The translations under genes and the position numbers were made by a program. The notes under the pieces were generated by a model. It worked only from the letters and a program-made list of their open reading frames with translations. It was not told the origin of the DNA and searched no databases. A stretch of 44,480 bases of DNA from an uncultured Lachnospiraceae bacterium. GTDB lineage: Bacteria > Bacillota > Clostridia > Lachnospirales > Lachnospiraceae. Below are positions 3,906-44,480 of the stretch, in pieces (position 1 is the first letter of the stretch; each line of letters opens with the position of its first letter). The stretch covers positions 1 through 44,480 of the forward strand of contig CANQCY010000016.1 of the NCBI GenBank assembly GCA_947591245.1, in the 5' to 3' direction.

Positions 3906-3934
3906 ATTTTACAAAATTATGGCTTTTCTGTCAA
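3906..3934 (-). promoter_or_regulatory. Sigma-A promoter of the arylsulfotransferase-like gene
   Basis: On the minus strand, a perfect TTGACA (-35, 3929-3934) is separated by 17 bp from TAAAAT (-10, 3906-3911). The -35 box is formed by codons just before the stop of the preceding membrane-protein gene, so the two genes are not simply one operon. Confidence 0.7.
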
Positions 3935-4540
3935 ATCATACACCTTTCCCGTCGATTTTTCATGATAAAAAACGGCGCGTTCTCCGTCGCTCATGATCAC
4001 TTGCCCCTCATACTCCATATTTGACATATTGAAATAGATCCAGACCTTACTCACCGGATATTCCTCGCTATTATATTTTTGTGCATAACTGTTCATAGAG
4101 CGGCGTGCCGCAAACGGATACAGCGGATTCCGAAACACTGCCGCGCCCGCGCCAAACGTCAGAACAGCGCCCAGCGCGCAACAGGCGATTCCCGCCACCC
4201 GGGACTTATTTCCATTGATCAGCACCCGGATGAGAAACCCTCCTGCGATCCCCAGCATCAAAAAGAGGATCGGTACCGGAAGCAGCATAAGCGATTCAGC
4301 GAGAGCATCCGCACCAGACTCCATAAATTGGTATATAACCGACATGACGGCAACCGCCCCCAGTACGATAAAGCTGTATTTTCTAAGCCAAACTGCCGCC
4401 AGACAGCCGATGATAGGCACAACAACCATCACCTGCGGAAGGTCATAATTCGCATGCAGCTGTATATATTCCCACACGCCTGCCACTGTAAATATTATAA
4501 TCCCCAAACCTGCCCGTATTATTTCTGAACGTTCTTTCAC
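3917..4540 (-). CDS. Small polytopic membrane protein of unknown function
   Basis: I do not recognise the family. The predicted 207-residue protein has four to five hydrophobic segments in its first ~150 residues, then a soluble tail of ~60 residues (from about NPLYPFAARR) that ends with a compact beta-like region containing YEGQVIMSDGERAVFYH. The GTG at 4540 is preferred as start because GGAGG (4546-4550) lies 5 nt upstream. The ATG at 4552 would place that GGAGG inside the coding region and leaves only a weak GCGGA before it. A promoter at 4610-4638 lies between this gene and spmB. The product is probably a membrane sensor or accessory protein, but no role can be assigned. Confidence 0.7.
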   Translation of the reverse strand: MKERSEIIRAGLGIIIFTVAGVWEYIQLHANYDLPQVMVVVPIIGCLAAVWLRKYSFIVLGAVAVMSVIYQFMESGADALAESLMLLPVPILFLMLGIAGGFLIRVLINGNKSRVAGIACCALGAVLTFGAGAAVFRNPLYPFAARRSMNSYAQKYNSEEYPVSKVWIYFNMSNMEYEGQVIMSDGERAVFYHEKSTGKVYDLTEKP

Positions 4541-4609
4541 TGCTTCCTCCATTTCCGCACTGTTTTTTGTGCATATGCGCATATACGATAAAATATTCGT
4601 CTTTATACT

Positions 4610-4638
4610 ATAATACAGGATATTGTTTAGGTTTACAA
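4610..4638 (-). promoter_or_regulatory. Putative sigma-A promoter of the small membrane-protein gene
   Basis: On the minus strand, TTGTAA (4633-4638) is followed after 17 bp by TATTAT (4610-4615). It lies just downstream of the spmB stop, in an AT-rich spacer. Confidence 0.5.
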
Positions 4639-4661
4639 TATTTTGTTTTTTATATATTGCC

Positions 4662-5177
4662 TTACGCCAGCCACACCGACGCAATGACGCCGGCCAGCGT
4701 CGCCAGCAGCGCGCCCGCCAGCGTATACCTCGTTTTCGTCACCTTCGCAGTCATAAAGTACACGCTCATTGTATAGAAAATCGTCTCCGAACAGCTCATG
4801 AGCACGGACGCCAGAGTACCCAGGTCGCTGTCTGCGCCAAACTGCTTGTATATATCGAGCAGGAGGCTCGTAGCCGCGGATGAGGAAAACATTTTCACAG
4901 TGACAAGCGGTACCAGCTCCGAGGGAAATCCGAGCACGGACGTCACCGGAGAAAGCATTGCCGCCAGATAATCCAGACTGCCTGACTGGCGGAGCACGCC
5001 GATTGCGATCATCAAGCCAACCAACGTAGGAAGAATCTTATATACCGTCTTAAAGCCGTCCACTGCCCCTTCGATAAACGCATCAAAAATGTCAACCCTG
5101 CTTAACAGCCCGTAACCCGCTACCAATAAAAGAATAAACGGAATCATGCTGTCCGAAAGATAATATAAAAATCTCAC
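4662..5177 (-). CDS. spmB: Spore maturation protein B
   Basis: This is a 171-residue polytopic membrane protein of the nucleoside-recognition (Gate) domain type. Recognisable stretches are FILLLVAGYGLLSRVDIFDA, the ILPTLVGLMIAIGVLRQSG core and TVKMFSSSAATSLLLDIYKQ. In Bacillus, SpmA and SpmB are needed for spore core dehydration and heat resistance. The gene starts inside the end of spmA (ATGA overlap, 5174-5177), which indicates translational coupling and a shared transcript from the sigma-E-type promoter before spmA. Length is normal for the family. Confidence 0.95.
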   Translation of the reverse strand: MRFLYYLSDSMIPFILLLVAGYGLLSRVDIFDAFIEGAVDGFKTVYKILPTLVGLMIAIGVLRQSGSLDYLAAMLSPVTSVLGFPSELVPLVTVKMFSSSAATSLLLDIYKQFGADSDLGTLASVLMSCSETIFYTMSVYFMTAKVTKTRYTLAGALLATLAGVIASVWLA

Positions 5178-5818
5178 GCTTCGCCGCCTCCCATTCCCGA
5201 ATTGTGCGTTTTATCCAAACCGGTACCGCCTTTCTCTTTGCGCCGGCTCAATTTTCTCGCCGCCACGGCAAACAGAACGCCCGCCGCCGTGGATATAAGC
5301 GTGGCAACCATACCCATACCGATAATGGACGTAGGCGATACTGAACCGTACTGGCTGCGGTAGGCTATAATATTTACCGGAATCAACTGCAGCGAAGAAA
5401 TGTTAATGATCAGAAACGTACACATATCCGCACTGGCTACATTCCCGCCGCGGTTCAGTTCCTTCATCTGCTCCATCGCTTTCAACCCGTAAGGCGTCGC
5501 CGCCCAGCCGAGCCCCAGCACATTTGCAATTATATTTGCCGCAATGTACTCGTTTGCGATATGGCCGGCAGGAATATCCGGAAACAAAAAACGAAGGGCC
5601 GGCCTCAGCGCTCTTGTCATCGCGTCGATCAGACCAGCCTTTTTTGCAATATTCATAATACCCGTCCACATGGACATCACGCCGAGCATGGCAATACAAA
5701 GCGTCACCGCTTCCTTTGATGAATCAATGGCAGCCGTTCCGACTTCTCCGGTTCTGCCGGTAAATGCTGCTACAATGATGCCCGCAAGCAGCATAATTCC
5801 CCATAATTTATTGAGCAT
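5174..5818 (-). CDS. spmA: Spore maturation protein A
   Basis: This is a 214-residue membrane protein, partner of SpmB and also of the nucleoside-recognition domain type. Characteristic regions are MLNKLWGIMLLAGIIVAAFTG, the MLGVMSMWTGIMNIAKKAGL helix and the IANEYIAANIIANVLGLGWA/TPYGLKAMEQM core. It acts in the mother cell in spore dehydration. It overlaps spmB by four bases. Upstream is a near-perfect mother-cell sigma-E promoter (5845-5873), as expected from the known sigma-E dependence of the Bacillus operon. No good ribosome-binding site precedes the ATG; an AAGGGA lies about 14 nt upstream. Confidence 0.95.
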   Translation of the reverse strand: MLNKLWGIMLLAGIIVAAFTGRTGEVGTAAIDSSKEAVTLCIAMLGVMSMWTGIMNIAKKAGLIDAMTRALRPALRFLFPDIPAGHIANEYIAANIIANVLGLGWAATPYGLKAMEQMKELNRGGNVASADMCTFLIINISSLQLIPVNIIAYRSQYGSVSPTSIIGMGMVATLISTAAGVLFAVAARKLSRRKEKGGTGLDKTHNSGMGGGEA

Positions 5819-5844
5819 ATTTGTTCACGTTCCCTTTTTGTTCC

Positions 5845-5873
5845 AGTGTATGACAAACACGGAACGAATATGC
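5845..5873 (-). promoter_or_regulatory. Sigma-E-type (mother cell) promoter of spmA-spmB
   Basis: On the minus strand, GCATATT (5867-5873) is separated by exactly 14 bp from CATACACT (5845-5852). Both fit the Bacillus sigma-E consensus (KMATATT-N14-CATACAHT) without a mismatch. The predicted start is about 20 nt before the spmA ATG. Confidence 0.75.
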
Positions 5874-5907
5874 CCATTGCCTCAAGCAAAAAATACTGCC
5901 CGTTTGT

Positions 5908-7389
5908 CTAATTGTGGATAAATACCGCCTCCCGGTATTTCACCATGTTATAAATCTTCTCTGCATCATCCGGGGCAAGATTCAGGCAGCCGTGGGATCC
6001 CTTCGTCTGATACAGCGTCTTTGTCCACCGGCTCCATGGCTGCCATGTGGCGGGATGAAAACCCGTTCCGCTCCATGTAATACGAACCCAGTGTTTGACA
6101 TGCGTTCGGTAATCCTCTCCCGTCATCGTATATTCCGGACGATGTTCCTTTATGTAGAAGGCGCCTACTGCCGTCTCGCGCCCCTCAACCGGAAGCCCGC
6201 TGATGCACCGACAGGAAAAAGCAACCTTGCCTTTGCGGAATACGTATACCTTTTGTTCCTTCAGCGAGACTTCCGTATAATTTTTTTCGTCCCAGTCATT
6301 TTTTCCCAAGTCCCTCTCAAACCCGGTATTGAGATAGTTGGCTTTCCGTTTGATTAAAATATCCTTTTTGTTTTCCTTACCCGGATCATTTATATACCGG
6401 GCGATCGCCTCCGGTTCTATTTTTTGTTTCAGCGAATCCTTCACCTGTTTCAGCGTTTTTTCATAATCCATCTGCCAGCCAAAATCACCGCCATTTATCT
6501 GAACGTCTTTTCCCGTGTGGGATTTAATCGTCCTTGTCTTGCCAACGGTTTTATATTTTTTACAGAAATTAACCGTCCACTCTTCTATTTTCTTATTATT
6601 ATAAACAATTTTTCCGTCTTTATATTGAATCCATTTTGCAATGTCGTTCGGGGTAAGCTCTTCTGTAACGCCCCCGTCCATATCCCATCTGACAAAACGG
6701 ATCGCCGCATTGTTGCAGAGGTCGATCTGTATGCTTAATTCACTGTCATCCGAGGTAACCTCCGGCGCTTCATATACATCGGGATAAACCTCTTCCTGCG
6801 TGAGATCGATCTCCATCCGCCCCTGCCGAAGCGCCAGATCGACTGCCGACATGAGAACCGGAATCCGAATCTGGTTTCCCTCATTTTCCTTGACGCAGAT
6901 ATACCGGCTCTTTGCCTCATCAAATTTCGCATATGCCGCCACCGGAGGCTCGACCTCAAAATCCGCGCCTCCCTGAATCAGCTTGCACTGGTTTATGATA
7001 TTTTCCAGTTTTTTTGAATCATAGGCCACGTCGTATTCCACCGAAAGCTCCCGCTGCCCGCCAAACGGAAACAGCATGCCCTCGTGCTGTTCCTGAAACG
7101 CCTTTTCCCAATTTTCCCCCATATGAATATTGTAATCAATGTCTGTCCCCAGTATCGTGACCTTCTGATCGCCACGGGATCGGATCGTCAGGATATACTG
7201 CTCGCACATGCCTGAAATCCTGCTTGCCGATTCCTCCATCGTCTGCCCGGACACATTTACTCCATTTATGATCGTTCCCGGATACCAGCGATCAGAGTAA
7301 TACGCGTTTCCCCAAAAAATAATGCCGAAAAGACCTAACGCTGCAAGCAGCAGCAATATTCCTGCAAGTATACAGAATGTCTTTTTCAT
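5908..7389 (-). CDS. L,D-transpeptidase (YkuD) with peptidoglycan-binding domain
   Basis: This 493-residue protein has an N-terminal membrane anchor (about 5-27), then a long extracellular part with a putative peptidoglycan-binding domain containing GTIINGVNVSGQTMEE, and a C-terminal YkuD catalytic domain. The active site GSHGCLNL carries the nucleophilic cysteine at about residue 468 and its histidine two residues before it; a conserved SGTGFHPATW stretch lies upstream. Such enzymes form 3-3 peptide cross-links in the wall. It is the third gene in a minus-strand run after the adenylation and transglutaminase-like genes, 46 bp from the latter. spmA follows but has its own promoter. Confidence 0.9.
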   Translation of the reverse strand: MKKTFCILAGILLLLAALGLFGIIFWGNAYYSDRWYPGTIINGVNVSGQTMEESASRISGMCEQYILTIRSRGDQKVTILGTDIDYNIHMGENWEKAFQEQHEGMLFPFGGQRELSVEYDVAYDSKKLENIINQCKLIQGGADFEVEPPVAAYAKFDEAKSRYICVKENEGNQIRIPVLMSAVDLALRQGRMEIDLTQEEVYPDVYEAPEVTSDDSELSIQIDLCNNAAIRFVRWDMDGGVTEELTPNDIAKWIQYKDGKIVYNNKKIEEWTVNFCKKYKTVGKTRTIKSHTGKDVQINGGDFGWQMDYEKTLKQVKDSLKQKIEPEAIARYINDPGKENKKDILIKRKANYLNTGFERDLGKNDWDEKNYTEVSLKEQKVYVFRKGKVAFSCRCISGLPVEGRETAVGAFYIKEHRPEYTMTGEDYRTHVKHWVRITWSGTGFHPATWQPWSRWTKTLYQTKGSHGCLNLAPDDAEKIYNMVKYREAVFIHN

Positions 7390-36998: not shown

Positions 36999-39305
36999 TT
37001 ATTTTTCCCACAGCCCCGCCACAAGCACGCTCATATCATCCGACGCTTCCCTTGCATTGCGCGAAAGCGCCTGCATCAGGATTTTGTTTGCGACGTCTGA
37101 CGGATTGCTCGTATTTATATTCTGCAAAATATTTTCGATATAAAATTCCTTATTTTCGCCCGGGAACGCATCCACGATACCGTCCGATACCATTATGACC
37201 ATATCTCCGTCCGAAAGCTCTGTCACCGTCGATTCCGGCTCCGCCTCCATCTGAATGCCCACCGGAAGCGTCCGGGAAAAAATCGTCTCCACCCTGTCCT
37301 TTCTCATGATAAAAGTGGCGGCGGCGCCGTTTTTTACTATTTCACAATTTCCACTATAAAGGTCTATCGCCGTCATGTCAAGAGTTGTAAATTTTTTTCC
37401 TTCATAAGACATTACAAAAAGAGTATTCATGAGGCGTATCGCCGATTCCTTCCGAAAGCCCGCCTCGATCAGCCCCTCCAGCACCTCTACCAGATTTTCG
37501 CTGTCCCGGCATGCCCTTGACCCGCTTCCCATGCCGTCAGACAGCATCATAATCAGTTCGCCGGTCGAAAGCTCCAGAAAAGAAAAATTATCACCCGACA
37601 CCGTTTCCCCGCTCTTTGCCACACGCGCCAGCCCGGTAAGCGCTTTATAGTTTGTATCCTGCACAAAAGCAACTGCCTCATACTCTTTTGGTATGACGTT
37701 TTTTACGTATCTTCCCGCCGTCATGCGCATCTCAACCGCATGCTCCAATGCGGCCGAGACATCTTTTTTCGTGATACACGCGTTTCCTCTCGCCTTTGCG
37801 ACAAAGCATATTTCCATATTTCCCCTGCAGTCTGTTTTAAAAGAAAGATTTTTTACATGGATGCCAAGGGAACGAAGCGCAAAAAGCGCTTTCTTTTTCA
37901 TCTCCACCGGCACCTCCGCCGTCTCGTTTAATTCCACCGTAAACGCTTTCAGCGCGTCGGCGATTTCCAGCATCTGATTCGCCATCGCCGCCCTGCTCTC
38001 CGCCATTTTATTGCGCCAGCTTAAATTCATTCTGGCAACCGCCATTCGCTCGTTAATCTTTTCTATATATTCATCCAGCCTCAGGCATCGGTTGCAAAAC
38101 CTCTCGCTAATCGCATCCGTCTCTACTATTCCCTGTTCGCTTGCCGCCGCAAGAATATTTCTTATATTTTCATACGTCTCCTTATAATTTGTCTCCCAGC
38201 AGTAATGGCAGTTCACGCATTCGCGGCACACCTTGCCCGACAGCTCGTCAAAAATTTCCTCCATCTCATCCATCGAAATCTGCCGTTCCTTTTCCGTAAA
38301 ATCGCTGAACGACTTAGCCAGACGCTTAAACGCCAGCGAAAAGCCGTCGAGTTTATAATTCGCCAGCGTTCTCAAATCCTCCTTTGCAAACGGATTTTCC
38401 TGGTCCTTCATGAGATCGGTTTCAATCGTCCGGATCACGCTTCCGGGTATCGAAAGAAAGATAATGGCTGCGGATACCATACCGCGCAGCTCCACTATGC
38501 CGAGCGCCTCATTCCGTATTACATACGCCATAATAACGCCCATGATAAGAAATGCCGCCGTACTCATAATTCTGCCGATTTCACGGAAAATGCCGACTCC
38601 GATGCCAAGCAGGCAGTACACTCCGACCAAAACCATGCCGCTCCCGGACGCCACTGCCAGAATGCCTCCCGCCGCACCCGCCATCGCTCCCGGCGCGGCC
38701 CCATACCGGTAGCCGATAAACAGTACAAGCAAATAACTGAACGTCTCCGCGATCGACAAAACCCCGTCAAAGATCCGCGGCATGCCGTACACCGCCAGAG
38801 ACAGCAAAGCAATCATGCTGATCATCTCTTCATTGCCAAGTATCTTTTCCCAGTCCTCATACAGAAGAAAGCGAACGCCCCACTGGAATACATTGGCGAG
38901 CGCAATGATGCAGAGGCTCTCCAACAGGCTCATCCACACTAACTGCAGCGTATTTGCCGCCACGGCGCTAGTCGCCACCCCCAATATAAAGTTAAGGATG
39001 GCGCTCACGCACGCAACGGAAATTACGTCCGCCTCCCTTCCGTCCACTTTCTTCATAATATACTGCACAAATCCCGCCAGCCCTATTATCACAATATACT
39101 GAATAAAACTCACTCCCCTTGCCTGAGTGAGCACGCCCGCCAAAACCGAAAACAAAACGAGCGTCCGGCCGCCCGGATAGACGCCTGACGCACATATATA
39201 TGCAACCGCAAAGGGATTCATGGAGAACAGCCATACCCTTCCCAGCAAGAATCCGATCACCACCTGTAAAATCCATCGTTTTTTTGATACCGCACCTTGA
39301 ATCAT
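36999..39305 (-). CDS. spoIIE: Stage II sporulation protein E (PP2C phosphatase)
   Basis: This ~768-residue protein has an N-terminal domain with about ten membrane helices (residues ~10-290), a cysteine-containing central region (CRECVNCHYCWE) and a C-terminal PP2C phosphatase domain (DGMGSGSRACRDS, TTLDMTAIDLYSG, VSDGIVDAFPG, SDDMSVLVAGLWEK). SpoIIE dephosphorylates SpoIIAA to release sigma-F in the forespore and binds FtsZ at the polar septum. The ATG at 39305 follows AGAGGGAGACG; the next in-frame ATG up (39338) has no site, and the frame further up crosses the promoter. A Spo0A-type promoter lies at 39369-39433. Confidence 0.96.
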   Translation of the reverse strand: MIQGAVSKKRWILQVVIGFLLGRVWLFSMNPFAVAYICASGVYPGGRTLVLFSVLAGVLTQARGVSFIQYIVIIGLAGFVQYIMKKVDGREADVISVACVSAILNFILGVATSAVAANTLQLVWMSLLESLCIIALANVFQWGVRFLLYEDWEKILGNEEMISMIALLSLAVYGMPRIFDGVLSIAETFSYLLVLFIGYRYGAAPGAMAGAAGGILAVASGSGMVLVGVYCLLGIGVGIFREIGRIMSTAAFLIMGVIMAYVIRNEALGIVELRGMVSAAIIFLSIPGSVIRTIETDLMKDQENPFAKEDLRTLANYKLDGFSLAFKRLAKSFSDFTEKERQISMDEMEEIFDELSGKVCRECVNCHYCWETNYKETYENIRNILAAASEQGIVETDAISERFCNRCLRLDEYIEKINERMAVARMNLSWRNKMAESRAAMANQMLEIADALKAFTVELNETAEVPVEMKKKALFALRSLGIHVKNLSFKTDCRGNMEICFVAKARGNACITKKDVSAALEHAVEMRMTAGRYVKNVIPKEYEAVAFVQDTNYKALTGLARVAKSGETVSGDNFSFLELSTGELIMMLSDGMGSGSRACRDSENLVEVLEGLIEAGFRKESAIRLMNTLFVMSYEGKKFTTLDMTAIDLYSGNCEIVKNGAAATFIMRKDRVETIFSRTLPVGIQMEAEPESTVTELSDGDMVIMVSDGIVDAFPGENKEFYIENILQNINTSNPSDVANKILMQALSRNAREASDDMSVLVAGLWEK

Positions 39306-39368
39306 CGTCTCCCTCTTTCCGCAAAATCTGCCAGACATATTTACTGCTATAATAGTTCCTAAAACATA

Positions 39369-39433
39369 AGTATAGACAATGCGGATATCAAATTTTGTCA
39401 AAAAAAGAATCGCGCCCAAAAAACTTTTCGACA
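39369..39433 (-). promoter_or_regulatory. Spo0A-dependent-type promoter of spoIIE
   Basis: On the minus strand, a perfect TTGACA (39396-39401) and TATACT (39369-39374) are separated by 21 bp, too long for unaided sigma-A. A perfect 0A box TGTCGAA (39427-39433) lies 25 bp upstream of the -35, and TGACAAA (one mismatch) overlaps the -35 (39394-39400). The Bacillus spoIIE and spoIIG promoters share this layout. Confidence 0.8.
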
Positions 39434-39439
39434 CGATTC

Positions 39440-39733
39440 TCACTTCGCTTTAAAAATTATTTCATCATCATATACAAGGCCGAACTTTCTGCGCGCCATG
39501 TACTCGACATACTCATCCGTCTGCATATACGCCTGCTTTTCCTGTATCGACTGCCGCTCCTTCTCCAAGTCGGCTCTCTTTGCCTCCAGCTCCTGCTTCT
39601 GCTTCTGCATTTCCTGGCATTCCGCCTTCAGGGAAAAACTCTGGGCAAAAAGCGTTGCACAGAAAAGCAGTACCACCGTCATCACCAGATACAGTCCGGT
39701 GCGGTTTCTTCGCCTTCCTTTTTTTACATGCAT
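39440..39733 (-). CDS. divIC: Septum formation initiator DivIC
   Basis: This 97-residue bitopic division protein has a basic cytoplasmic N-terminus (MHVKKGRRRNRTG), one membrane helix (about 14-31) and an extracytoplasmic coiled coil (about 36-75, rich in Q, E, K) ending in YVEYMARRKFGLVYDDEIIF, the typical DivIC/FtsL-type end. It helps stabilise the divisome with FtsL and DivIB. It has its own strong promoter overlapping the yabQ stop and a ~90-nt leader. spoIIE follows on the same strand behind its own promoter. Confidence 0.93.
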   Translation of the reverse strand: MHVKKGRRRNRTGLYLVMTVVLLFCATLFAQSFSLKAECQEMQKQKQELEAKRADLEKERQSIQEKQAYMQTDEYVEYMARRKFGLVYDDEIIFKAK

Positions 39734-39823: not shown

Positions 39824-39852
39824 ATTATAAAACGTTTTCCAATTTTTATCAA
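39824..39852 (-). promoter_or_regulatory. Sigma-A promoter of divIC
   Basis: On the minus strand, TTGATA (39847-39852) and a perfect TATAAT (39824-39829) are separated by 17 bp. The -35 box contains the TGA stop of yabQ, so divIC is expressed in vegetative growth independently of the sporulation genes before it. Confidence 0.78.
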
Positions 39853-40259
39853 GCCTTTTTTTCCTCTTTTTTCATGTTTTCTTGTTTTTGCTTTTGTTTT
39901 GCGCGCACCTTTTTAACAAGCATTGCGGCCGGACGGGTGATCAGATGCCATACTTTCCGAACTGCTTTTACGATCAGGTCGGAAATCCGCGTTCCCACCG
40001 TTTTTCGGTATAATAAGGCTCCTGCGCCAAAGGCAAATACAAAAAAGCTTCGGATCGTTCCATTATTACACAAAAAAATCATCTGAAAAACGCATACTCC
40101 GCTTATGGCAAAAAAAAGCACATCCGCAACCAACTTACCGAATACCCCCGGACGGAAAAGCTCCCGAAAAACATTGACTGCCTCATAGGCAAGCATAACG
40201 AAAACGCCGCTCAAAAAGGACCCTAGCAAAAATACAAGCTGATTTTTTATTTCTTCCAT
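39849..40259 (-). CDS. yabQ: Spore cortex biosynthesis protein YabQ
   Basis: This 136-residue protein has three to four membrane helices (about 8-28, 43-64, 68-86) and a long basic, lysine- and glutamine-rich tail. It matches YabQ in size, helix layout and position after yabP. In Bacillus it is needed for spore cortex formation in the outer forespore membrane. The stop of yabP and the start of yabQ are adjacent (40259/40260), so they are translated together. The sigma-E-type promoter before yabP probably drives both. Confidence 0.88.
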   Translation of the reverse strand: MEEIKNQLVFLLGSFLSGVFVMLAYEAVNVFRELFRPGVFGKLVADVLFFAISGVCVFQMIFLCNNGTIRSFFVFAFGAGALLYRKTVGTRISDLIVKAVRKVWHLITRPAAMLVKKVRAKQKQKQENMKKEEKKA

Positions 40260-40583
40260 CTATTTAAACAGCTTTCCGAAAAATGATCCGCCATTTCCCG
40301 CTGAATGCGAATCCGTATATTTCAGCTCGCATATTTTTCCTTCGAGATCGACTTCCCCTTTTTCAAGCGTCAGTCTTTTTACATGCAGCTCATTACCGCG
40401 AAATATAAGCGTCCCCCTCGTTGTTTCCAGAAGAATTTCATTGCTGTCAAATGAAACCACCTCTTTCACTCCCGTCACGGAAGCCCGCCCGCGGTCGTAC
40501 ATGCTCACATCATGCCTGCCGCCCGCGCCTTGTTCCCTTTCGTCCGGATAATGGTTCAGTCTGCTTCTTTGGAACTCCTGCAA
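40260..40583 (-). CDS. yabP: Sporulation protein YabP
   Basis: This ~107-residue protein of the YabP/YqfC family has the recognisable core RASVTGVKEVVSFDSNEILLETTRG and a C-terminal GKLFK. YabP is a mother-cell protein needed for cortex formation. The start is uncertain. A TTG at 40583 is preferred because AGGTGG (40590-40595) lies 6 nt upstream and the sigma-E-type promoter would start transcription near 40608. The ATG at 40598 would have almost no leader, and an ATG at 40502 has no site. yabQ follows without a gap. Confidence 0.85.
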   Translation of the reverse strand: MQEFQRSRLNHYPDEREQGAGGRHDVSMYDRGRASVTGVKEVVSFDSNEILLETTRGTLIFRGNELHVKRLTLEKGEVDLEGKICELKYTDSHSAGNGGSFFGKLFK

Positions 40584-40614
40584 AATGTGCCACCTCATAA
40601 TAACCAGTTATTCC

Positions 40615-40996: not shown

Positions 40997-41272
40997 TTAT
41001 GCGTTCACGGCATCCTTCAAAGCCTTTCCAGCCTTGAATTTCGGCGCCTTAGAAGCGGGAATGCTCATCTTTTCCTTCGTGAGCGGGTTAATTCCTTCCC
41101 TGGCCGCTCTCTGAGTAACTTCAAAAGAACCAAAGCCAACCAGCTGAATCTTCTCGCCCTTCTTTAATTCATCTGTAACAACATCAACAAATGCTTTCAG
41201 CGCTTTTTCCGCATCCTTTTTGGACAAATCTGCCTGATCAGCCATTGCTGCTACTAATTCTGACTTATTCAT
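40997..41272 (-). CDS. hup: HU-family DNA-binding protein
   Basis: This 91-residue nucleoid protein has the HU fold sequence MNKSELVAAMADQADLSKKDAEKALKAF..., IQLVGFGSFEV and the DNA-binding arm RAAREGINPLTKEKMSIPAS, ending FKAGKALKDAVN. It bends and compacts DNA as a dimer. GGAGG lies 9 nt before the ATG. It is transcribed alone from a strong promoter (41347-41375) with a tandem repeat in its leader, and has its own terminator. It lies directly downstream of the interrupted spoVT. Confidence 0.97.
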   Translation of the reverse strand: MNKSELVAAMADQADLSKKDAEKALKAFVDVVTDELKKGEKIQLVGFGSFEVTQRAAREGINPLTKEKMSIPASKAPKFKAGKALKDAVNA

Positions 41273-41443: not shown

Positions 41444-41899
41444 TTAACTTTCCATCTGGCGACCCAGGAAATTAGCCCCGCAAAGCGCCATTTTTTCCTC
41501 AAATTCGCCAAACGGTTTCTTTTTATCGCGGGATAAAAGAATAACTGCTCCGATCGCGTCCCCTTCGGATACAATCGAACCGATCGCCTCATTCGCCTCG
41601 CCTTCGCCGTCTTCTACAACCTTACAGCGGGTGCCTTTCGCCTCTGTGGATAAAATATTGGCGCGGTCGTCGATGCACTGTTTCAGTTCCCTGTGTATGC
41701 CTTTACCCGAATAACTTTTCTTATCCGGGCCCGCCGCTGCCACGATCTGGTCGCGATCTGCCACGCAAACCGTACACTTCGCCACATTTGCCACAGATTC
41801 CACATATTCTTTTGCCAGAACGCCAAGCTCCCCGATTGGGGAATATTTCTTCAAAATCACACCGCCCTCATGATTGGTGAAAATCTCCAATGGGTCGCC
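41444..41899 (-). pseudogene. spoVT: 3' part of spoVT, interrupted by the element
   Basis: The last 151 codons match SpoVT from its residue ~31 on: GDPLEIFTNHEGGVILKKYS, PIGELGVLAKEYVESV, then the GAF domain ending VILLSRDKKKPFGEFEEKMA and NFLGRQMES. The missing ~30 residues would hold the start of the AbrB-like DNA-binding hairpin (in Bacillus MKATGIVRRIDDLGRVVIP...). Position next to hup agrees with the normal clostridial spoVT locus. The remaining part is undamaged, so the gene could be restored by precise excision if the 5' part survives beyond the window. SpoVT is a sigma-G-dependent forespore regulator of spore germination and resistance genes. Confidence 0.88.
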
Positions 41900-43720
41900 A
41901 CTACTGATAACATTGACAGTAAAGAGGCGTTCCGGCTGATTGCGAGTTTTCAGCCGAACCTTTGTAGTGTTTGGGGCTTCTTCATCCGCTATGGAAAGCG
42001 AAGATGTATGCCCTCTGTCTTTTAATATAACTTTACTGTCTTTGTTAAAATTTGCAGCCGGATCTCCTTCTGCTGCCCTTGACACGTTCAGCAATGCGTC
42101 TATATCGGCTTTCAGTTTGACATCTATATGATCTTCATAGACAACGATCCTGTCTATCAAAAGCTGTAGATCCACCTTATCCAAGCTGGGCTTCTCCAAA
42201 ATATCATTAAAGACATCTATAACTGTTCTTGCCAGTCTGTTGATCCGAATAATGTCATTACGCTTATCGGAAGTAAGATTGATCTGATTTTGAAGCCCGC
42301 TGATTTTGATTGTGGCTTCATCCTCTAATTCGGCATAGGTTTCCTCGACAATCTCTATTTGACTTAAAGCCGCCGCATTCTCTGCCGCTTTTGCCTCCAG
42401 AGCAGCTATTTCCTTTATTTTTCGTTTCTTGATTGCCTTTAGTTCTTCTTTCGCATCATGCAGATGTCTTTCCAGAATGGACAGCGTATTTTCATTTTCT
42501 TGTATCTCTGTCGATTCGTTCTTAATGGACATCTCCAACTGCTTAATCATATCATCCGAGTTGTCCCTGACCTTGCGGATATACTGCTTTAAGATAGCAT
42601 CCAGCAGATCAACACGGGTATGATGTGAACTGCATCCTTTTGTGCCTCTCTTATGGTATGTGCCACAGGTATAGGCAGGAGCAAGATCACCCCGGCTCAT
42701 GGAAAACATCGGCGAGCCGCAATCGCCGCAAAACAGGAAGCCGGAATACATATTGTCATATTTCTTCACTCCCCGGTAATTATTGGCAGACCTCTTTGCC
42801 AATAAGTCCTGCGTCAGAATCCATGTACGGTTATCTATGATCGGTTCGTGATGATTTTCAAATACGAAGTTTTCTTCTTCCGCAACCTTAACATCCGTAC
42901 CATTGATTTTTTTGCGCTTATACTTGTGCTGCCGCAAAGTCCCGATGTAAAAATCATTATTCAAAATACCCTGCACAGTCACAATGCTCCATGCGGTATA
43001 TGTCTTTTTCCTTTTGTATTCATCTCCCCTTGCTTCCACACGCTGTTTTTCTTTCATGCGGGGCGTCGGGATATTCTTCTCTGTCAGATAGTTGGCAATC
43101 TTTTTATATCCCCATCCTTCATTATATAAGGAAAAGATCTGACGCACAACCTCCGCTTCGTCCGGCTCCACAGCAATCTCCTGTTTTTTCATATTGGTAA
43201 TGATATACCCATACGGAACCACATTAATCCATTTGCCTTCTTCCTGACGTCTGCGGATGACATTCCGCACCTTTTTACTGGCATCTGTTACCGGCATCTC
43301 ATTGATCAGAAACCGGAACTGTATCGCCATCCAATCGTCAAAGGTTGGGTAGTCAATGGAGTCGCCTATGCTGATGATACGCACTCCGGCATCACGCAAG
43401 TCCTCCAATTCTACAAGACCTTTGCTGTTTCTTCTGGAAAAACGGCTGAAGTCTTTGACAATGAGTATTTTGACTTCTCCGCCAAGCAGCCGTTTTCTCA
43501 GCTTTTGATAATCTTCCCGCTGTTCAAACGTATAGCCCGAACGATCTCTGTCAACATAAAAGCTCAACCTGCATTTCGGGAATTTTTTTCTCACAAATTC
43601 CTGAATAATGCTTTTCTGATTTTCAATGGAAGTGTTGTCTTTGTCTAACTCCTCATCAACAGAGATCCGACAGTATCCGCTGATTTCTTCCTGCAGGAAA
43701 GCGTCTGTCTGTTTCTCCAT
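41444..43720 (-). CDS. Large serine recombinase fused in frame to the C-terminal part of SpoVT
   Basis: This is one uninterrupted 758-codon frame. Residues 13-150 are a resolvase-type catalytic domain (GYCRISVDEE with nucleophile about S20; VKDFSRFSRRNSKG), 150-300 a Recombinase domain (VVPYGYII, IFSLYNEGWGYKKIANYL), then a zinc ribbon (C331, C334, C352, C363), a long coiled coil (about 385-500) and a VDLQLLIDRIVVYEDHID end. A ~60-residue tail leads to residue 608, where SpoVT sequence begins (GDPLEIFTNHE) and continues to the end with its GAF domain. AAGGAGG lies 5 nt before the ATG. The recombinase presumably integrates and excises the element. The fused state is seen directly; whether the protein is active in this form is not known. 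Confidence 0.93.
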   Translation of the reverse strand: MEKQTDAFLQEEISGYCRISVDEELDKDNTSIENQKSIIQEFVRKKFPKCRLSFYVDRDRSGYTFEQREDYQKLRKRLLGGEVKILIVKDFSRFSRRNSKGLVELEDLRDAGVRIISIGDSIDYPTFDDWMAIQFRFLINEMPVTDASKKVRNVIRRRQEEGKWINVVPYGYIITNMKKQEIAVEPDEAEVVRQIFSLYNEGWGYKKIANYLTEKNIPTPRMKEKQRVEARGDEYKRKKTYTAWSIVTVQGILNNDFYIGTLRQHKYKRKKINGTDVKVAEEENFVFENHHEPIIDNRTWILTQDLLAKRSANNYRGVKKYDNMYSGFLFCGDCGSPMFSMSRGDLAPAYTCGTYHKRGTKGCSSHHTRVDLLDAILKQYIRKVRDNSDDMIKQLEMSIKNESTEIQENENTLSILERHLHDAKEELKAIKKRKIKEIAALEAKAAENAAALSQIEIVEETYAELEDEATIKISGLQNQINLTSDKRNDIIRINRLARTVIDVFNDILEKPSLDKVDLQLLIDRIVVYEDHIDVKLKADIDALLNVSRAAEGDPAANFNKDSKVILKDRGHTSSLSIADEEAPNTTKVRLKTRNQPERLFTVNVISSGDPLEIFTNHEGGVILKKYSPIGELGVLAKEYVESVANVAKCTVCVADRDQIVAAAGPDKKSYSGKGIHRELKQCIDDRANILSTEAKGTRCKVVEDGEGEANEAIGSIVSEGDAIGAVILLSRDKKKPFGEFEEKMALCGANFLGRQMES
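41895..41910 (-). other. Inferred attachment-site junction (attL or attR) in spoVT
   Basis: SpoVT similarity begins at the glycine codon at 41897-41899 and recombinase-specific sequence precedes it (VNVISS). The crossover core must therefore lie near the GGCGACCC run at 41892-41899 or a few bases to either side. The exact core needs the second junction, which is outside the window. Confidence 0.6.
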
Positions 43721-43805
43721 TCCGTCCTCCTTTTTATTTTGGTTGATTTTTCATATTTACAGATAACATTGTAACTCATTTATAGCAGAATTGCAAGGTC
43801 CTTTT

Positions 43806-44024
43806 TCACTTTTTCAATGCAAGATTTCTGTTATGACTTAGCAATGCTCCTGTAAGCTCCACAAGACTTTCCTTTCCAGACTCATATATTACAAATCGGT
43901 ATTTTTTATCTCTAAATTTCCGGATGATAGGAAGAAGCTCATTCCTAATCCGGTCATCTTCTTTTTCCTGATTGGTAAGCCATACTCCTGCGAACTTAAA
44001 TTCATCGTTGATCTCTATATTCAT
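43806..44024 (-). CDS. Small element protein upstream of the recombinase
   Basis: This 72-residue soluble protein (MNIEINDEFKFAGVWLTNQE start; RFVIYESGKESLVELTGALL; basic end NRNLALKK) has a mixed alpha/beta look. I recall similar unnamed proteins just before serine recombinases in integrative elements. A recombination directionality factor or regulator is possible but not shown. GGAGG lies ~6 nt before the ATG at 44024; an ATG 30 bp earlier precedes that site and is rejected. The recombinase gene starts 85 bp downstream with its own site, so the two are probably co-transcribed from the promoter at 44077-44105. Confidence 0.75.
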   Translation of the reverse strand: MNIEINDEFKFAGVWLTNQEKEDDRIRNELLPIIRKFRDKKYRFVIYESGKESLVELTGALLSHNRNLALKK

Positions 44025-44076
44025 TGCATCCCTCCTTCTTTCAATTTTTCCCACCGTCAGGAAATATATTCCATTT

Positions 44077-44105
44077 TCTATAAATCAAAACACGTTTATT
44101 CACAA
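44077..44105 (-). promoter_or_regulatory. Putative promoter of the small gene and recombinase
   Basis: On the minus strand, TTGTGA (44100-44105) and TATAGA (44077-44082) are separated by 17 bp. Both boxes are moderate. An inverted repeat flanks and overlaps it. Confidence 0.5.
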
Positions 44106-44123
44106 CAAATGCGCTTTGATTTA
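44081..44123. repeat. Inverted repeat around the element promoter
   Basis: TAAATCAAA (44081-44089) and TTTGATTTA (44115-44123) are perfect 9-bp inverted arms separated by 25 bp. One arm overlaps the -10 box and the other lies upstream of the -35, a layout suited to a repressor or to recombination/excision control. Confidence 0.65.
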
Positions 44124-44181
44124 CGGAAACCCTCCGACTTCGCATTTGCAGCTTTTTCAAAAAATCCATACGGTCGGCAGC

Positions 44182-44441
44182 TCAGTAAACTGCCCTCATC
44201 GGTCTTGCACCGTCATTCAATTTTGACCGGATCGCTCCGGAAGTATCATTATCAAAGATATGCCTCACAGCCTCATGCACTGCTGCACTTTTCGCCAGAC
44301 ATTCATCGCTCCCCGCCTTAGCTTCAATATCAACAAACAATATTCCCTCGCATCCACTTCCACATGATTATGGAAGCAGGCGGCTCTTGGCGTGTCCGCA
44401 TAGCGGCTCCGCATATCCCACACGTCCCGTATGTCTTTCAT
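44182..44441 (-). pseudogene. Frameshifted small gene of the element
   Basis: From the ATG at 44439-44441 the frame reads MKDIRDVWDMRSRYADTPRA... to VEVDAREY. After a one-base gap the neighbouring frame continues smoothly as FVDIEAKAGSDECLAKSAAV...SGAIRSKLNDGARPMRAVY and stop at 44182-44184. A single missing T near 44338-44340 would join them (REY-LFVD), giving ~86 residues. I recognise no named family. It is either a recent frameshift or a sequence error. Confidence 0.65.
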
Positions 44442-44480
44442 ATTCTGTTGTCAAGGTACACCTCCAGCTCACGCTGGCAG
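44438..44480 (-). CDS. C-terminal end of an element gene, cut by the right window edge
   Basis: Only 13 codons are visible (CQRELEVYLDNRI, stop TGA at 44438-44440). The TGA overlaps the ATG of the next gene (ATGA), which supports a real, translationally coupled gene. Nothing can be said about its function. Confidence 0.5.
   Translation of the reverse strand, partial: CQRELEVYLDNRI

Follow-up and report, generated by a model that had tools for sequence, protein, structure and literature searches.

Mobile elements that split the sporulation gene spoVT and may be excised in the forespore

The window analysed here is the whole of a 44,480-nt contig (C16) from an uncultured Lachnospiraceae bacterium, and its right edge is the end of the contig. 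Close to this edge the gene of a large serine recombinase (LSR) runs into spoVT. This raises the question of whether a mobile element is excised during sporulation to rebuild the gene, as an earlier note on this DNA had proposed from the known skin element, and if so in which cell. G, C and L numbers are our handles for genomes, contigs and loci.

The fused frame and its host locus

The features of the window are collected in Table 1. The earlier note had the LSR frame entering spoVT at about codon 31, and this was borne out by the fused open reading frame. In its product the Pfam domains Resolvase (15-164), Recombinase (186-310), Zn_ribbon_recom (325-382) and SpoVT_C (631-757) were found, and the SpoVT model TIGR02851 matches over positions 27-180. 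The catalytic domain of LSRs begins with YxRxS; here it begins with YCRIS, and with the Resolvase, Recombinase and zinc-ribbon domains all present the protein has the domain set of an LSR. The LSR frame is open. The split SpoVT is 86-89% identical in amino acids to that of five intact congeners. Of the neighbouring genes, profile matches confirmed SpoIIE, YabP, YabQ, an S4 protein and HU beside the fused frame.

Table 1. Positions of the annotated features in the window
Feature	Position	Strand	Basis or remark
spoIIE, host sporulation gene	36999..39443	-	TIGR02865 above cut-off
yabQ, host sporulation gene	39849..40259	-	TIGR02893 above cut-off
yabP, host sporulation gene	40260..40598	-	TIGR02892 above cut-off
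hup, host flank	40997..41272	-	PF00216
LSR-SpoVT fused frame, 758 aa	41444-43720	-	open throughout
spoVT 3' part, Gly31 to stop, GAF half, in frame with LSR	41444..41899	-	Pfam SpoVT_C
Inferred crossover zone GGCGA (GGAGA in the 5' half on C48)	41895..41899	-	limits set by G046 and G810
Putative attP arm, LSR side, CTGTCAATGTTATCAGTAGT, also the final LSR codons; pairs with C48 arm	41900..41919	-	dyad
LSR (integrase) portion of fused frame	41900..43720	-	ORF and Pfam domains
Sigma-A-like promoter before LSR, TTGCAA-17-TACAAT	43768..43796	-	9/12 matches
Small ORF, 72 aa, candidate recombination directionality factor	43806..44024	-	HMM match 4.4e-34
Rest of element DNA, to contig end	44025..44480	-	

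The first 30 or so codons of spoVT had been predicted to lie beyond the right edge. They were found on a separate contig of the same genome (residues 1-34, G000:C48:8536-8637(+)), 65 nt from the end of C48; the gene is interrupted, as claimed. By synteny, the ends of C16 and C48 both fit the trxB-spoVT-hup locus of close relatives. That locus is unbroken in congeners, where hup adjoins intact spoVT in 13 of 14 loci. A second full spoVT, which would have counted against the proposal, was not found among matches at E<=10 in the 85%-complete genome; the sole further match is an AbrB-like frame of 112 aa on C5. Judged from its sequence, the window includes the right-hand terminus of a mobile element that has integrated at about codon 31 of spoVT. 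An assembly artefact was ruled out, as other genomes hold both halves on a single contig; in the single-contig genome G340 they lie 33.9 kb apart.

Predicted attachment sites and spread of the family

The two spoVT halves have the sequence GACCCATT in common. The core previously placed at 41892-41905 was about right, with the crossover now put within GGNGA; of the two genomes that set its limits, the MAG G810 contains both states of the locus. When the arms on C16 and C48 are joined, the putative attP of this element forms a dyad with 19/22 matching positions, and none of 300 shuffles was as good. Joining the outer flanks gave an open spoVT in each of the 11 paired genomes; the attP obtained from the inner arms scored 15-19/22 as a dyad, compared with 7-10/22 at the spoVT site. 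In all 11 the attP is more symmetric than the attB, as expected for an LSR. Eight listed loci are left out of this count because the search pattern did not capture them.

The predicted attP falls inside the LSR gene, at its 3' end, and the attB inside spoVT, so that integration swaps gene ends. The LSR gene loses its short tail, which is joined in frame to the spoVT 5' half, and in turn acquires the SpoVT GAF half, again in frame. If exactly reversed, the reaction would restore spoVT, and in the joined sequences the rebuilding of the gene suggested by the earlier note indeed restores the frame. Attachment sites that restore the frame, together with a site-specific recombinase of its own, are properties that the element shares with sporulation gene-intervening elements.

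Of the 80 top-ranked LSR relatives from named genomes, 76 carry an in-frame SpoVT fusion at the same codon (72 full-length and 4 cut by a contig end), and this recurrence excludes chance; one locus (L153) has a frameshift at the junction. The hosts are gut and rumen bacteria, and within the order 15 of the 392 genomes sampled are carriers. Isolates with the element include Anaerotruncus massiliensis AT3, Butyricicoccus pullicaecorum DSM 23266, Pseudoflavonifractor MSJ-30 and Ruminococcus bicirculans 80/3. Where both halves were found on one contig, their order and strand are compatible with excision in 22 of 24 pairs (4/4 in one survey, 18/20 in another), the exceptions being G808 and G815. 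The survey with 4/4 leaves out G303, whose match is truncated (63-180), and G338, where the frame is interrupted within a gene that is otherwise unsplit. The analysis covers genomes with a match at 1e-25 and, among sub-cut-off matches stronger than about 1e-62, those listed. IMG/VR yielded 27 loci, of which only three are close (L177-L179), and all three run into SpoVT.

LSR divergence is strongly discordant with that of the host gene spoVT, which indicates that the elements move between species. A vertically inherited, domesticated element is ruled out by this discordance, and the comparison with skin did not hold in that respect: the element belongs to a family that transfers between species.

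Upstream regions of the recombinase and the small gene

The small ORF usually lies upstream of the LSR gene in the family. It is single-copy in its own genome and gave no match in Pfam, NCBIfam or PHROG. Its protein was found in 10 of 15 carriers and 1 of 377 other genomes (Fisher 1.6e-15); it is missing from the remaining five carriers at 1e-6. In the one non-carrier (G217) it is encoded on a contig of 5.8 kb, on which neither an LSR of the spoVT family nor an end repeat indicating a circle was seen. The only viral-contig match shares its contig with L177. From its position and co-occurrence we infer that the small protein is a candidate recombination directionality factor (RDF).

Two promoter tests were used. 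One was based on consensus motifs, and the other on a matrix learned from the upstream regions of intact spoVT genes. Before the LSR gene the consensus motifs gave sigma-A boxes in 21 of 63 family loci, against 10% in shuffles; only sigma-A was clearly enriched, and sporulation sigma motifs were not. The window's own LSR upstream region has three such sites against 1.9 in shuffles, which is weak alone and gains from the family-wide enrichment. Before the small ORF the sigma-F consensus was found in 48/52, partly due to the ribosome-binding site; after trimming of 25 nt it was found in 33/53, against 37% expected.

The forespore-type matrix, a test devised after a first look at the data, was positive before 34 of 48 small ORFs, compared with 8/59 LSR genes, 22/316 long ORFs and 11/123 short ORFs. 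None of 200 column-permuted matrices equalled this result, and base composition makes up part of the signal (mean effect 0.59 for permuted matrices against 1.47). In raw score the LSR upstream regions exceeded controls (p=0.012) but not their own shuffles (p=0.18). Across the family, LSR upstream regions look vegetative and small-ORF upstream regions forespore-type. The small ORF of the window has a low promoter score, 5.6 in the zone and 8.3 at 46 nt. The spoVT of the same genome has kept a forespore-type promoter. The proposal of excision in the forespore gains from the family, where the LSR-linked small ORF has a forespore-type upstream region, while the signal is weak in the window itself.

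Possible excision in the forespore and its alternatives

The spore-type promoter before the small ORF in many of these elements suggests that excision may take place in the very cell destined to form the spore. We favour this mechanism and consider it somewhat more probable than not: a vegetatively made LSR would hold the element in place, and a forespore-made small protein would drive its exit and restore spoVT. In vegetative cells the LSR would be made from the sigma-A-like promoter and the element kept integrated. During sporulation the small protein, with a sigma-F/G-type promoter in most members, would act as directionality factor, and the element would be excised in the forespore as spoVT switches on. 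Excision in the forespore would affect the germ line, unlike that of skin or SPbeta, and a step of reintegration or loss would then be needed. Once the factor has disappeared after germination, the circle may be put back by the LSR; failing this, the element would be lost from the descendants of the spore and would persist by transfer. A more demanding form is rather unlikely, in which programmed germ-line excision is under host forespore sigma factors, the spore contains intact spoVT and the circle, and LSR produced in vegetative growth returns the circle to its site during outgrowth. The LSR would then be changed each time, with its short tail in the circle and the SpoVT GAF half when integrated, so that the integrating and excising enzymes differ.

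The discordance noted above would suit an ordinary mobile, often mobilizable, family for which a highly conserved stretch of spoVT serves as attB, without programmed excision. Its carriers would form spores poorly, or none, until the element is lost, and the family would persist by transfer. This is a serious alternative, though we hold it to be less probable than forespore excision. G046 resembles a rescue: its intact spoVT follows a remnant that lacks the LSR and bears a further copy of the spoVT 5' end. Additional 5' halves (G813, G819, G831, G829, G807), a relaxase in L074 and Mob_Pre in L133 (two elements; our own is incomplete) and the LSR upstream regions without enriched sporulation motifs point the same way, as does the damaged 5' half in G187 (two substitutions, tail frame broken). 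No virion genes were noticed in five listed elements, which were partly searched. A forespore-type promoter before a small gene linked to carriers would not be expected of such a family, and the retention of SpoIVA in 26 of the 27 carriers tested also counts against it. The G187 damage would also fit asporogenous carriers, for which the target spoVT would be dispensable and in decay, and non-sporing is the usual description of the Ruminococcus hosts. This is very unlikely, as the SpoIVA-positive carriers include R. bicirculans and two R. flavefaciens strains, the window holds SpoIIE, YabP and YabQ, and its spoVT 5' half has no amino acid change against G024 and G004 over 29 codons despite dS of about 1 and 1.5. 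Least probable of all is a chimera selected as such, with the GAF half governing direction or activity of the integrated LSR: the recurrent in-frame fusion would agree with it, but a fixed attachment site already sets the frame and no selection is needed.

Forespore excision can be compared with known systems. Skin(Cd) lies in sigK of Clostridioides difficile, with LSR CD1231 and RDF CD1234 (PMC5025042). As in the spoVT elements, the LSR adjoins the 3' part of the split gene and has sigma-A-type expression, and a separate small gene is present; the skin RDF is made in sporulation only, to which the forespore-type upstream region of the spoVT-family gene corresponds. The skin target and RDF belong to the mother cell, whereas in C. 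difficile spoVT is under sigma-F/G control, its mutant yielding no heat-resistant spores, and the candidate RDF upstream region is forespore-type. The spoVT-element LSR is, moreover, fused in frame to its target in a family that spreads between species. SPbeta likewise divides a sporulation gene, spsM of Bacillus subtilis, which excision rebuilds, but it is an active phage excised in the mother cell only, so that the spore keeps it (PMC4191935). The non-phage gin of Bacillus cereus ATCC10987, an element with serine recombinase, splits the sporulation regulator gene gerE; GerE acts in the mother cell, gin has three recombinases and 28.6 kb, and no cross-species family is shown in that study (PMC5595907). 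In Clostridium botulinum yin lies inside a clostridial sporulation gene too, but a different one, yabG, and is called prophage-like (PMC10747680). LSR clades tied to one conserved gene are known as site-specific clusters; spoVT is absent from the targets in the main text of that paper (PMC10083194). No spoVT-targeting element was found in the open-licence literature searched, in agreement with the earlier view of spoVT as an undescribed target. What skin, SPbeta and gin share, a sporulation gene split in an order and orientation that excision can rejoin, was found here. A mother-cell target, true of the examples described in PMC4191935, characterizes the cases known so far and is not part of the definition; spoVT lacks it.

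In the developmental rearrangements described in the papers cited here, it is a gene with a mother-cell role that is interrupted, and the element stays in the genome of the spore. A widespread family in a forespore regulator breaks this rule, and raises the testable question of how an element persists in hosts whose spores need the occupied gene. For a single conserved codon the family also provides numerous LSR/attP/attB sets, several of them from cultured gut anaerobes, together with a candidate directionality factor.

Split spoVT locus and its attachment sites

The open reading frame in which the large serine recombinase (LSR) is fused to SpoVT gave a match to TIGR02851 covering model positions 27-180 in a profile search. 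The window and contig C16 (44,480 bp) are one and the same, so that the sequence stops within the element. The earlier note had expected the first part of spoVT at the far end of the element, and this part is indeed present in the same genome (G000, 85% complete) on another contig, C48. Uninterrupted spoVT, which the note proposed to look for in relatives, was likewise found in the congeners G001, G004, G021 and G025, where the intact gene stands between a trxB-like gene on one side and hup followed by an S4 gene on the other. Our genome has the trxB-like gene next to the 5' half (C48), with hup and the S4 gene next to the 3' half (C16). Because these flanking genes match the congener order, the ends of C48 and C16 flank a single interrupted locus. 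Among the congener loci with intact spoVT, hup is adjacent in 13 of 14 and the trxB-like gene in 4 of 14, with a flank length varying among loci. Compared with SpoVT of G001, G004, G021, G024 and G025, the split protein has 86-89% identity.

Coordinates of the features discussed in the text
Feature	Contig or locus	Position	Strand	Remarks
LSR-SpoVT fused ORF, 758 aa	C16 (window)	41444-43720	minus	LSR domains and SpoVT C-terminal domain
Small ORF, 72 aa	C16 (window)	43806-44024	minus	candidate recombination directionality factor (RDF)
Inverted repeat AAATCAAA ... TTTGATTT	C16 (window)	44040-44150		upstream of the small ORF, found by eye; also at loci L097, L099, L100, in the clade of this element
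SpoVT residues 1-34, with ribosome-binding site	C48	8536-8637		65 nt from contig end
1148-aa ORF	L035 (C48)	3919-7365		upstream of the trxB-like gene; putative PglX-type methyltransferase
Tandem pair of SpoVT-like genes	G067:C21	135832-137055		both full length

When the outer flanks are joined, all 11 genomes with paired halves give EIRRTLRIREGDPLEI(F/Y)T in an open frame; this set takes in G187, whose tail frame is broken. Joining the inner arms results in a near-palindromic site with 15-19 of 22 symmetric positions in all 11 genomes, equalled by at most 2 of 300 shuffles; the spoVT site itself has a symmetry of 7-10 of 22 in the same genomes. The motif GGNGA, where the third base varies in some cases, is common to both spoVT halves. 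One 5' half in G046 diverges from intact spoVT directly after GGCGA and one 3' half in G810 is identical to it starting at GGTGA, which would place the crossover within GGNGA, with GA as the simplest choice.

The LSR frame has no stop ahead of the site, and the left arm of attP, the site of the element inside the 3' end of the LSR gene, supplies the final residues of this frame (VNVIS-). Furthermore, the spoVT 5' half reads on in frame for 23-35 codons into the element DNA in complete unbroken tails, e.g. SQIILSEYERFGFAMLRLEERWLGR and LQTTWTPFEKYCFSMLDLEKRIGISAT. A stop within 18 codons was found in 1 of 10 distinct tails in the spoVT frame versus 8 and 5 in the two remaining frames, and the mean BLOSUM score was 0.41 versus 0.22 and -0.23, which is only a modest excess over one of them. 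If the tail following the spoVT 5' half is the LSR C terminus in the circular form, as we infer, integration would exchange 3' ends between int and spoVT. As the site fixes the frame, the in-frame LSR-SpoVT fusion alone is no proof of function.

Occurrence of the fusion and movement between species

Of the 392 genomes in the order sample, 265 had a SpoVT match at 1e-25; 24 genomes of the sample with weak best scores were re-examined together with G000 and G044. The fusion was present in 15 genomes of this sample; that of G142 is truncated where its contig ends. Among 391 genomes sampled from the class, 6 had a match at 1e-150 across LSR and SpoVT and 1 had the LSR part only, a threshold which could miss distant fusions such as the G044 type (LSR 39% identical). 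Additionally, when named genomes were searched using the LSR part alone, 464 relatives were obtained, and the best 80 of these 464 were analysed: 72 were fused full length to SpoVT, 4 were fused and cut by a contig end, one (L153) reached SpoVT after a frameshift and one (L155) ended at the junction. The LSRs at L112 and L125 are sited outside spoVT, and both genomes have a full-length spoVT. Hosts of the fusion include Eisenbergiella sp., Ruminococcus bicirculans 80/3, three R. flavefaciens strains, Anaerotruncus massiliensis, Butyricicoccus pullicaecorum, Pseudoflavonifractor sp. and Candidatus Borkfalkia.

Full-length SpoVT was not found in 47 of 50 genomes from the best-80 LSR set, and in 40 of these 47 the SpoVT match was, by our reading, limited to the N terminus (1 to 32-42). 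Halves on one contig are about 7 to 78 kb apart and have the expected order and strand in 22 of 24 pairs. The exceptions, with swapped order (G808; L210/L211) or opposite strands (G815; L218/L219), suggest later rearrangement. SpoIVA was found in 26 of 27 genomes carrying the fusion, G270 being the miss. In G344 (L094/L095) something other than this family, without LSR fusion, interrupts spoVT at the same codon; next to the 3' half there are a single 314-aa serine-recombinase-like ORF and a large ORF of lipase/fibre-like type.

The LSRs of G000 and G177 are 84% identical versus 47% for the SpoVT parts, and those of G111 and G171 are 76% versus 96%. In the close pairs L117/L118 and L161/L162, the LSR DNA is 98.8-99.6% identical and spoVT 82-85%. 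Since the identities disagree, the elements are passed from one species to another and have repeatedly entered a single codon. Contents differ among the five elements compared, in which selected proteins were searched: DUF4143 ATPases (L149), an MmeI-like enzyme with a RepA_N protein and a relaxase (L074), a Mob_Pre protein (L133), DUF5058 proteins (L073) and a solute-binding protein (L113).

Some of the structures suggest that insertion into spoVT may be costly. In G046 (L039, L013, L233, L234) spoVT is intact, while a different contig holds a structure without LSR that starts with a duplicate of the spoVT 5' end (identical over 137 bp, unrelated DNA upstream), followed by an LSR-like tail and a DUF4143-like ATPase. 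This looks like a remnant left after spoVT was rebuilt, and it is likely to be adjacent to the intact gene, because the contigs overlap by 77 nt. In G810 (Lachnospiraceae SIG298; L100, L204) the fused contig stops 99 nt into spoVT. The same MAG also has an intact spoVT with these 99 nt unchanged, so that occupied and empty sites are found together, via strain variation, mis-binning or excision. The 5' half is damaged in G187, and more than one 5' half is found in G813 (L206), G819 (L207), G831 (L208), G829 (L212, L214) and G807 (L209). A ParA-like gene follows each copy in G813, and some variants have RIRMG(D/A)P in place of RIREGDP.

Small ORF and upstream sequences

Of 89 loci that have at least 700 nt, 75 encode a small protein of about 60-117 aa no more than 3 kb upstream of the LSR; several genomes are present twice among the loci, under G (genome) and L (locus) names. 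The small ORF ends less than 300 nt from the LSR part in 44 of 58 measured loci. At 1e-6 the protein was found in 11 of 392 order genomes, i.e. 10 of the 15 carriers and G217 (Fisher 1.6e-15). Searches of Pfam and NCBIfam gave no match; against PHROG, one of two members gave a single 13-residue match (E 0.0098).

A two-box matrix of forespore type was learned from the upstream sequences of 26 intact spoVT genes (GCATAA, 16-17 nt, AATACTAA). The -10 box was required to lie 15-40 nt ahead of the start codon, with a score of at least 7. This score was reached by 34 of 48 small-ORF upstreams and 8 of 59 LSR upstreams; among the control ORFs, 22 of 316 long ones and 11 of 123 short ones reached it. 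Among 200 column-permuted matrices, none distinguished small ORFs from controls as clearly as the learned matrix did, although their mean effect was 0.59 versus 1.47. Sigma-A-type boxes were found in 21 of 63 LSR upstreams versus 10% in shuffles. The small ORF of the window has a weak forespore-type signal, 5.6 in the zone and 8.3 at 46 nt; a score of 7 was reached by 5 of 8 small ORFs of its own clade and 43 of 56 others (not dereplicated). The spoVT 5' half on C48 retains a strong match of 16.6. Sigma-F and sigma-G promoters of C. difficile are described as alike and similar to those of B. subtilis.

Comparison with known elements

Among the titles and abstracts returned by searches of open-licence PMC texts, none described a spoVT-intervening element. 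Where open-licence texts have spoVT alongside prophage and integrase, the passages checked use it as an AbrB-family name. The main text of an LSR survey (PMC10083194) does not contain spoVT, which its supplementary tables could still name as a target.

The skin element of C. difficile expresses its LSR from a sigma-A promoter, and production of its RDF is restricted to the mother cell (PMC5025042). By analogy, the spoVT element family appears to have the same layout; its switch, however, would be of a forespore type according to the upstream sequences. Such a switch fits the target, because spoVT of C. difficile is under sigma-F/G control and required for heat-resistant spores (PMC3789822). 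As reported by Abe and co-workers, mother-cell restriction keeps SPbeta in the spore genome (PMC4191935), whereas forespore excision would not keep the spoVT element there. Following such excision, either the circle would reinsert after germination, or the spore lineage would lose the element, which would then persist by transfer. The turnover data fit both.
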